From positions 302,712 to 366,711 of the forward strand of contig UCKU01000015.1 in the NCBI GenBank assembly GCA_900473185.1: a stretch of 64,000 nt of DNA, written 5' to 3'. A model generated the notes under the pieces. That model ran no database searches and was not told the origin of the DNA. It saw nothing but the letters and a program-made list of their open reading frames with translations. Both the position numbers and the translations under genes were made by a program. This document shows positions 49,278 through 50,781 of this stretch, piece by piece; positions within the stretch are counted from its first letter, which is position 1; every line of letters starts with the position of its first letter. The DNA comes from Hyphomicrobiales bacterium. Its GTDB lineage: Bacteria > Pseudomonadota > Alphaproteobacteria > Rhizobiales > Rhizobiaceae.

Positions 49278-49997
49278 ATGCCAATCATTACATTTGCGAA
49301 TACGAAAGGAGGGGCCGGCAAGACGACGGTCGCTCTCGTTCTTGCCACAGAACTGGCTCGCCGTGGCCATCGCGTTTCCGTTCTGGATGCCGATCCCCAG
49401 CAGTGGGCCTGCCGCTGGCACCGTCTGTCCGGTGATGCGGCCGAATTCGCCGTCATCTCCGGTGTCAGCGAAGATACGATCGAACAGCAGATCAAGGACC
49501 TCAAGAAGCGCGGCGGCTATATCATTATCGACTTGCCGGCCGGTCTGAGCCCGCTGATGGCGAAGGCCATCGGCTTTTCCGATCATGTGATGGTTCCGGT
49601 GCAGGGCTGCGCCATGGATGCCGTCGGCGGCGCGCAGGTGCTTGAGATCATGAAGCAGCTTGCTGCCCAGCATGAAATCCGCATCCCGCATTCGGTCGTG
49701 CTGACGCGCATCAGTTCGATCATCACCACCCGCGCGCTACTCGCCGTCAAGGGTCTGCTCGCCAAGCAGCAGGTCAATGTCATCGATACGGCGCTGATCG
49801 AGCGCGCCGCCTATCGCGACATGTTCATTTCCGGCGGCAGCCTCTATACGATGGATCCTGCTCGTGTCAGCAATCTCGACAAGGCGCAGGACAATGCCCG
49901 CATGCTGGCAGATGACGTTCTCCGTCTCGTGCCCCCGAAGGCAGCCCGCGCCAAGTCTTCCAAGAAGGCGGCGGAGGTGGTGAAGGACGCCGCTTAA
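49278..49997 (+). CDS. ParA-family ATPase (orphan)
   Basis: MinD/ParA/Soj-type ATPase of 239 residues. The deviant Walker A is FANTKGGAGKTTVALVLATEL (K10 and K15), and Walker B is YIIIDLPAGLSP. VLDADPQQWACRWH follows the switch. It ends with a lysine-rich tail (KSSKKAAEVVKDAA) that may bind DNA nonspecifically. No parB, plasmid replication or parS-like repeat is adjacent, so it resembles VirC1-like or orphan ParA proteins rather than a partition operon. It is followed by a hairpin terminator and the right 17-bp copy. Confidence 0.9.
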   Translation: MPIITFANTKGGAGKTTVALVLATELARRGHRVSVLDADPQQWACRWHRLSGDAAEFAVISGVSEDTIEQQIKDLKKRGGYIIIDLPAGLSPLMAKAIGFSDHVMVPVQGCAMDAVGGAQVLEIMKQLAAQHEIRIPHSVVLTRISSIITTRALLAVKGLLAKQQVNVIDTALIERAAYRDMFISGGSLYTMDPARVSNLDKAQDNARMLADDVLRLVPPKAARAKSSKKAAEVVKDAA

Positions 49998-50007
49998 ACG
50001 CGCATTC

Positions 50008-50024
50008 ACCGCGCTATCCGATAC
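50008..50024 (-). repeat. Right copy of the 17-bp inverted repeat
   Basis: ACCGCGCTATCCGATAC, the exact reverse complement of 46002-46018. It lies between the ParA-like gene stop and its terminator hairpin. Confidence 0.8.
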
Positions 50025-50027
50025 CAG

Positions 50028-50063
50028 CAAGCGGCTTGTCTTCCGGCAGCCGCTTGTATTTTG
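50028..50063 (+). terminator. Rho-independent terminator of the ParA-like gene
   Basis: CAAGCGGCT, eleven-base loop, AGCCGCTTG, then TATTTTG. A 9-bp GC-rich stem with a short T-rich tail, 31 bp after the stop codon. Confidence 0.7.
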
Positions 50064-50084
50064 AGCATGGCTCTCACCATAAAT

Positions 50085-50099
50085 GTTCCCTTTTTGTTC
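50085..50099 (+). promoter_or_regulatory. Candidate LexA (SOS) box, GTTC-N7-GTTC
   Basis: GTTCCCTTTTTGTTC matches the alphaproteobacterial LexA consensus exactly. It is followed at once by a consensus -35 hexamer TTGACA (50100-50105), where LexA would block RNA polymerase. A -10 element is weak (TACGCT at 50122 with a 16-bp spacer). The next gene downstream is the 2H phosphoesterase. Read the other way, TTGACT on the minus strand could also use it. Confidence 0.65.
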
Positions 50100-50127
50100 T
50101 TGACATAAAAGTCAACGCTGGTACGCT

Positions 50128-50148
50128 CCTCCTTGTACAACAAGGAGG
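50128..50148 (+). promoter_or_regulatory. Leader hairpin that sequesters a Shine-Dalgarno sequence
   Basis: CCTCCTTGT, loop ACA, ACAAGGAGG: 9-bp perfect arms. The 3' arm contains AAGGAGG (50142-50148), a near-ideal Shine-Dalgarno. The ATG six bases later (50155) is followed directly by TAG. A ribosome or factor would need to open the stem before initiation. Confidence 0.7.
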
Positions 50149-50172
50149 CGGGCGATGTAGTCCGTAGTTCAA

Positions 50173-50781
50173 ATGCCTCATTTTCCACTAGATCCGAACG
50201 ACTCCGATCCCGAGAAGAAATCCGGTCCCGGCGGGGAACGTCACCACAGGCTGTTCTTCGTACTTCGCCCAGACATCGAAGCCGCATCCGAAGCGCTGGA
50301 GATCGCTCAAGTCTATCGCAACTCGCATTCGCTGACGGGGCCGTCGCGGCCCCGCGAACTGCTTCATGTCACGCTGAACGGCGTTGGAGCTTACCGGAGG
50401 CTGCCACAGGATATCGCCTTCGCTGCAGCACAGATGGCTGCAACTGTGCGCACCCGGCCATTCGATCTCGTGCTCGATGAGGTCATGAGCTTCAGACACC
50501 CAGGCGAACCACAGGCCTTCGTTATCTGCAACAGGCAGGAAAACGAGGCGCTGCAGGATCTTCGTCGCCAAATCCAAGAGGGCTTATACGAGGCTGGATT
50601 GCCTTATAACCTCGGAGGACATCTGACGCCGCATATGACGCTCCTTTACGATCGCAAGACCGTTCTACCCGAAAAGCTCGCTCGACCGGTGCGGTGGAAT
50701 GTCCGGGAGTTCCTTCTGATCCACAGTGTCTATGGAAACAGCGAGCATAACGTCGTCGGCCGCTGGCCTCTGCTCGACTGA
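50173..50781 (+). CDS. 2H phosphoesterase (2'-5' RNA ligase/LigT-like)
   Basis: Protein of 202 residues with the two H-x-T/S-x motifs of the 2H superfamily: LLHVTLNGVGAY (near 59) and GHLTPHMTLLYD (near 152). The opening RHHRLFFVLRPDIEAA is typical of LigT proteins. Members hydrolyse cyclic phosphates or ligate tRNA halves; the true substrate is unknown. The start is uncertain: ATG 50173 has no Shine-Dalgarno, while the perfect AAGGAGG site serves ATG 50155, which is in the same frame but stopped by TAG at once. This suggests either reinitiation or a nonsense change. A candidate LexA box lies 74 bp upstream. Confidence 0.82.
   Translation: MPHFPLDPNDSDPEKKSGPGGERHHRLFFVLRPDIEAASEALEIAQVYRNSHSLTGPSRPRELLHVTLNGVGAYRRLPQDIAFAAAQMAATVRTRPFDLVLDEVMSFRHPGEPQAFVICNRQENEALQDLRRQIQEGLYEAGLPYNLGGHLTPHMTLLYDRKTVLPEKLARPVRWNVREFLLIHSVYGNSEHNVVGRWPLLD

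Follow-up and report, generated by a model that had tools for sequence, protein, structure and literature searches.

A LexA-box gene for a LigT-like phosphoesterase in Rhizobiaceae probably uses a split ribosome binding site bridged by a hairpin

The leader of a LigT-like gene is most probably a split ribosome binding site, in which a small hairpin bridges a Shine-Dalgarno sequence (SD) and the true start codon at 50173; we put the probability of this reading at roughly 0.6. The gene lies in the analysed window, i.e., the whole stretch of 64,000 nucleotides to which all coordinates refer. A strong SD (50142-50148) sits 24 nt from the start codon, and a hairpin at 50149-50164 would fold away the excess spacing, leaving about 8 nt and so allowing initiation directly at 50173. 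The AUG-UAG pair that comes after the SD would be mostly loop content of this hairpin. It would play no part in the folded state, and opening of the hairpin would at most turn it into a non-productive decoy. Transcription would be under LexA (SOS) control and would start inside the 5' arm of a 9-bp stem, so that induced transcripts would probably lack this SD-masking stem. The feature is real and conserved, and its centre is more likely the split ribosome site than the start-stop. The start-stop is unlikely to be the main device, although it may serve as a decoy or in reinitiation. The elements themselves, their conservation and the enrichment of hairpins, all read from the sequence, form the basis of this interpretation.

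The features of the locus are listed below.

50085 to 50099, plus strand: LexA box GTTC-N7-GTTC of the alphaproteobacterial type, found by motif scan
50100 to 50105, plus strand: likely -35 element TTGACA, which adjoins the LexA box, recognized by eye in aligned orthologs
50122 to 50127, plus strand: likely -10 element TACGCT (TAAGCT or TATGCT in relatives), recognized by eye in aligned orthologs
50128 to 50148, plus strand: perfect 9-bp inverted repeat with arms at 50128-50136 and 50140-50148
50142 to 50148, plus strand: Shine-Dalgarno sequence AAGGAGG, with six of seven positions invariant in 14 sequences
50149 to 50164, plus strand: predicted spacer hairpin CGGGC-GATGTA-GTCCG, bridging SD and start codon, from fold and alignment
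50155 to 50160, plus strand: ATG-TAG start-stop, with ATG and TA in the hairpin loop and the last G in the stem
50165 to 50172, plus strand: 8-nt linker TAGTTCAA from hairpin to start codon, with six of eight positions invariant
50173 to 50781, plus strand: gene of a LigT-like 2H phosphoesterase of 202 amino acids, from the list of open reading frames, a profile match and orthologs

2H phosphoesterases carry two H-x-T/S motifs. Both are present in the window protein (HVT and HMT), and the second one, HMT, is found in all seven aligned proteins. The protein matches the profile PF13563 (2'-5' RNA ligase superfamily) with E=3e-14 and 53.8 bits at a curated cut-off of 27, and PF02834 with E=2.2e-6. 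There is one match to it in its own genome at the search threshold. The first motif deviates in two orthologs (N-V-T in L023 and H-I-S in L037), both of which retain H-M-T as the second motif.

The first-pass annotation had reported AAGGAGG at 50142-50148, an ATG at 50155 directly followed by TAG at 50158, and an in-frame ATG at 50173. All of these are in the sequence: ATG 50155-50157, TAG 50158-50160 and ATG 50173-50175 share one frame, and the SD is 6 nt from ATG 50155. The annotation also held that ATG 50173 has no ribosome site of its own. This statement leaves out a second, smaller hairpin (50149-50164) that would shorten the distance from the SD to ATG 50173 from 24 nt to 8 nt (7 nt if the last G of the SD also pairs). 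Thus ATG 50173 may have a ribosome site of its own, in two pieces.

The hairpin pairs 50149-50153 with 50160-50164 and has a loop at 50154-50159. Taken alone, the segment 50149-50172 has a predicted energy of -7.2 kcal/mol, which 2 of 200 shuffles reach. In the best fold of the longer segment 50135-50185 (-11.8 kcal/mol; 18 of 200 shuffles as good) the SD bases GAGGC pair with GCCUC after the AUG, and the hairpin is down to four pairs. In predicted transcripts that reach 50230 and start at 50133-50137, the pairing probability of the hairpin is 0.75-0.93 and that of the competing SD/GCCUC fold is 0.04-0.15; the SD bases are still largely paired in these transcripts, with other partners. Folding in vivo and initiation at 50173 are what we infer. 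The complementarity of GAGGC (50145-50149) to GCCTC (50175-50179) is a possible second way of hiding the SD. A search of 49950-50300 against Rfam returned a single match, at 49963-49999; its 14.8 bits (E=0.19) are below the gathering score of 38. A tRNA-like reading of GTAGTTCAAATGCC was considered and dropped because a base that is fixed in the T-loop consensus varies in the relatives.

The closest comparison is provided by group A, i.e., the window sequence together with the 13 orthologs nearest to it, at 69-88% protein identity. The five pairs of the spacer hairpin are standard in 70 of 70 cells in these 14 sequences. One of them varies between G-U (11 sequences) and A-U (three), the other four are constant, and no pair changed on both sides. 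The hairpin loop including the AUG is nearly invariant. The mean pairwise difference from SD to ATG is 0.041 per site compared with 0.372 for the fourfold-degenerate sites (47) in these genes, i.e., nine times lower, and the low variation extends into the first codons and is thus not limited to the leader.

We extended the comparison to the genus, in which 115 of 148 genomes, the own genome included, have a match to the protein. Leaders were read for 106 of the 115 (30 loci from the genus search and 76 fetched additionally). The other nine matching genomes are outside the leader survey; one of them, G017, entered later as L121, and its ortholog has a stop within the matched frame, yet the LexA box and the leader are retained. 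A script located first 90 of the 106 leaders and then, with a wider N-terminal motif rule, 103. The remaining three (L052, L075 and L090) do not enter the leader counts. By eye, LexA boxes are present in L075 and L090, and L090 also has the spacer hairpin, but with ATC in place of ATG. Groups A to O were assigned by script from the N-terminal residues, with no tree used. The 103 leaders fall into groups A (14), B (29), C1 (27), C2 (8), D (17) and O (others, 8).

The distance from the SD to ATG in the 103 leaders has a median of 26 nt and a range of 6-34 nt, with the scripted SD assignment being poor in some of them. Among leaders that form a helix of four or more pairs, group medians are 23-30 nt raw and 7-12 nt folded. 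Contiguous stems of five or more pairs that leave 5-13 nt were found in 80 of 102 leaders compared with 18.3% of 4080 dinucleotide shuffles. With at least four pairs, the numbers are 96 of 102 leaders and 49% of dinucleotide shuffles. L055, whose SD is 6 nt from ATG and which has no spacer hairpin, was excluded from this count. A folding energy of -7 kcal/mol or lower for the 30 nt preceding the ATG was computed for 90 of 103 leaders, compared with two of 23 control reading frames from the window; the control frames are of at least 220 amino acids and have an SD-like motif, and they numbered 61 before the SD filter.

When each leader is compared with its own shuffles, the fold is better than the shuffle mean in 98 of 103 cases. 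Individually, 32 of 103 are better than their shuffles at p<0.05, namely 14 of 14 in group A, 6 of 29 in B, 2 of 27 in C1, 6 of 8 in C2, 1 of 17 in D and 3 of 8 in O. Thirteen rows (one per group and each of the eight others) give a combined p of 1.4e-5; these rows include the look-alike pairs L062/L072 and L073/L074 and are therefore not all independent.

The stems vary in sequence from group to group. Group A has CGGRC/GUCCG, and group B has GGGUC/GACCY (the leader form is GGGTC-ATGAC-GACC(T/C), with variants). Groups C1 and C2 share CAAAGC/GCUUUG (CAAAGC...GCTTTG in DNA), and group D has GGGGC/GCUCC (GGGGC...GCTCC in DNA), both with variants. The eight other leaders include unrelated stems, e.g., in L044, L059 and L109. 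Support from covariation within the groups appears to be weak. It was assessed on distinct 36-nt segments, 24 for the 29 leaders of group B and 31 for the 35 leaders of group C. The group B stem is paired in 89.6% of cells and in at most 52% when slid, and, depending on the measure, between 101 and 331 of 500 shuffles do as well (101 for the covariation score, 124 for the percentage paired). The group C stem is paired in 99.5% of cells and in at most 51% when slid, with 31 of 500 shuffles reaching every measure.

Two further kinds of leaders were seen by eye. In six sequences from one other Rhizobiaceae genus (L117-L120, L122 and L123) there is no spacer hairpin, and an ATG 6 nt after GAGG seems to open straight into the gene, giving a longer N-terminus. 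In L126, L132, L134, L136 and L137 the start codon is directly preceded by a hairpin whose loop holds the SD; this is a different structured leader of the gene.

GTTC-N7-GTTC is described as the LexA motif of alpha-Proteobacteria in the accessible text of PMC3323433. There are four matches to it in the window compared with 1.65 expected by chance. Of the 106 genus sequences (the own sequence included), 105 have an N7 LexA box no more than 250 bases upstream of the match; the exception is L052. A family search outside the genus matched 71 of 394 genomes at E <= 1e-12, and the best 30 were taken as loci. Excluding the own genome and four rows of the same genus, 25 better-scoring orthologs of other genera remain, 22 of which have the N7 box. 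Boxes with other spacings occur in a handful of orthologs. The own lexA has the motif upstream, as do 15 of 200 shuffles of the lexA locus; for the own recA, no exact match but several with one mismatch were found in the fetched locus. The LigT-like gene looks like a member of the SOS regulon wherever we found it, SOS induction being what we infer from the box. The nearly constant presence of the LexA box on a LigT-like 2H phosphoesterase suggests that RNA end processing is linked to DNA damage. No report of such a link was found in a literature search limited to titles and the beginnings of abstracts, and the terms ligase, phosphoesterase and LigT are all absent from the accessible text of PMC3323433.

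The likely -35 and -10 elements place the predicted transcription start at about 50134-50137; a consensus promoter scan did not list a promoter at 50100-50127. Farther upstream, a 9-bp inverted repeat CAAGCGGCT / AGCCGCTTG lies at 50028-50056, 3' of a ParA/VirC1-like gene, and is similar in the orthologs. It is perhaps the terminator of that gene, and the consensus scan did not list it.

The perfect 9-bp stem that carries the SD in its 3' arm, also noticed previously, is indeed there (50128-50136 with 50140-50148). In group A it is paired in 94.4% of cells (119 of 126) and in at most 73.8% when slid; none of its pairs changed on both sides in these 126 cells, so there is no compensatory support. 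The stem probably straddles the transcription start. Its 5' arm comes directly after the likely -10 element, and transcripts from that promoter would therefore be without most of this arm. In transcripts from 50100 or 50128 the pairs of the stem have probabilities of 0.63-1.0 each. For starts at 50134-50137 the values are 0-0.28, and for a start at 50133 they are up to 0.71. The masking of the SD proposed earlier needs a transcript with 50128-50136, which SOS-promoter transcripts probably do not contain.

Promoter-dependent masking of the SD was rejected as a general device. Among 102 leaders, the SD is more open in the short transcript by more than 0.2 in 6 of 14 in group A, 11 of 29 in B, 9 of 26 in C1, 3 of 17 in D, 1 of 8 in C2 and 0 of 8 in O. 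The reverse, an SD less open in the short transcript, was found in 2 of 26 in C1 and 1 of 8 in C2. One C1 leader was omitted because its SD window began before the assumed start.

The most serious alternative to the split site is a minimal upstream frame, which the first-pass annotation had suggested. Ribosomes would start at AUG 50155 and stop at UAG, and some would reinitiate 12 nt downstream at 50173; the start-stop would thus set a low, termination-dependent output or hold the ribosome. We consider this explanation to be possible but rather unlikely. The frame itself is real and may hold ribosomes or serve reinitiation. The SD is at 6 nt from AUG 50155, the upstream AUG is kept in 14 of 14 group A sequences, and the next codon is TAG in 12 of them (the window and 11 of 13 relatives) and the sense codon CAG in two. 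Start-stop termination-reinitiation has also been demonstrated with E. coli reporters, according to the accessible part of PMC9841429. On the other hand, the AUG is in a hairpin loop that is predicted to be closed with a probability of 0.75-0.93, and the frame is not found throughout the genus.

The fate of the upstream AUG within the last 30 nt differs between groups. In group A, 12 leaders have AUG-UAG and two are open in frame. In group B, 22 of 29 leaders have a three-codon frame ending in TGA, five have an out-of-frame overlap and one is open; L034 has lost the usual upstream AUG, and its sole remaining one is at -30. The three-codon frame of group B (L024-L039 and others), mostly ATG ACG ACC TGA, is at about the same place as the ATG-TAG of the window. 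In group D (17 leaders), eight are open in frame from -18, four have three-codon frames, two have only an in-frame ATG at -6 and three have no ATG. No ATG was found within the last 30 nt in 26 of the 35 leaders of C1 and C2, or in 33 of the 103 genus leaders as a whole. Since a third of the leaders are without ATG and others have open or overlapping frames, while the hairpin is common, the start-stop is not the genus-wide feature. Of the two, the hairpin is the more widespread element, and the start-stop represents the form that its loop takes in one group. Nevertheless, the three-codon frames of groups B and D count in favour of a functional upstream frame, and an AUG at -18 or close to it reappears in groups A, B and D. 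A mere spacer does not explain this recurrence, which keeps the start-stop and reinitiation explanation alive.

The loop AUG-UAG and the hairpin might also act together as a two-state translational gate. With the hairpin folded, the SD would serve the real start; with the hairpin open, it would feed the unproductive start-stop. Opening might result from heat, the action of a helicase, RNA processing or the loss of a bound factor. We offer this only as a speculative extension with a small chance of being right. If true, an SOS-controlled RNA-processing enzyme would be made only from a folded, intact leader, possibly under the control of its own product.

An operator hairpin appears distinctly improbable. 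Here a regulator, which may be the LigT-like protein itself, would bind the stem between SD and AUG and block initiation. The near-invariant loop in group A and the structured leaders throughout the genus agree with this explanation, as does the E. coli thrS leader, where the hairpin interrupting a bipartite site is bound by ThrRS (accessible text of PMC3858243). However, the stem and loop sequences vary between groups, and the geometry of thrS as described there differs, its hairpin being flanked by the SD on one side and a U-rich upstream part on the other rather than lying between SD and AUG.

The sense codon CAG has a simple placement. The two CAG rows are one sister pair (support 100/100) nested in TAG rows (fork support 85/94), and TAG is therefore most simply ancestral in group A. 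According to the first-pass annotation, a sense codon in the relatives would point to a recent mutation; two of 13 have one. A longer protein made by amber readthrough was considered as well and set aside. A recent nonsense change at codon 2 of a gene starting at 50155, also put forward in the first-pass annotation, or a sequencing error there, is hardly credible: two relatives with CAG would read on in frame and the frame is open from that distance in 8 of 17 group D leaders, but TAG is present in the window and in 11 of 13 relatives from separate assemblies, and CAG is confined to that one pair of rows.

The split ribosome binding site is the preferred reading, and several known systems resemble it in part. 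Start-stop sites with termination-reinitiation in E. coli are described in the accessible part of PMC9841429. The AUGUGA and GUGUGA sites (narQ, E. coli) have a stop directly at the start codon and a possible second initiation nearby, as here. Unlike the case studied here, their start and restart codons overlap; in the window, 12 nt separate the stop from the restart codon, and a hairpin loop holds the start-stop. A practical caution follows for annotation: a spacer hairpin can present its loop as an AUG-stop after a perfect Shine-Dalgarno sequence.

T4 gene e, in the accessible text of PMC3014915, has a late promoter within the 5' strand of the SD-masking stem. Long transcripts can mask the SD, and the 5' arm is missing from those that start at the inner promoter, which is similar to the arrangement in the window. 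The difference is that in our case the start site is predicted and the effect is not general in the genus. The E. coli thrS leader has a bipartite site, in which the SD and a U-rich part farther upstream are set apart by a hairpin that ThrRS binds (PMC3858243, accessible text). Both hairpins interrupt a ribosome site, but that of thrS lies upstream of the SD and binds ThrRS, whereas the one described here would lie between SD and AUG.

The closest parallels are T4 genes 38 and 25. According to the accessible text of PMC3014915, a hairpin between SD and AUG cuts the distance from 22 to 5 nt and from 27 to 11 nt, respectively, and disruption of the hairpin lowers initiation. In these genes, as in the window, an over-long spacing from SD to AUG is made workable by a hairpin (here from 24 to 8 nt), and the arrangement is kept among close relatives. 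Unlike the T4 genes, the LigT-like gene is chromosomal and has a LexA box, its stem varies in sequence from group to group, an AUG-UAG lies in the loop, and the folding is predicted from sequence. In the accessible parts of these sources, split ribosome sites are documented for the two T4 genes and, as a more distant parallel, thrS; here, a split site appears to be common over a bacterial genus, with stems that vary between groups and on a gene with a LexA box.
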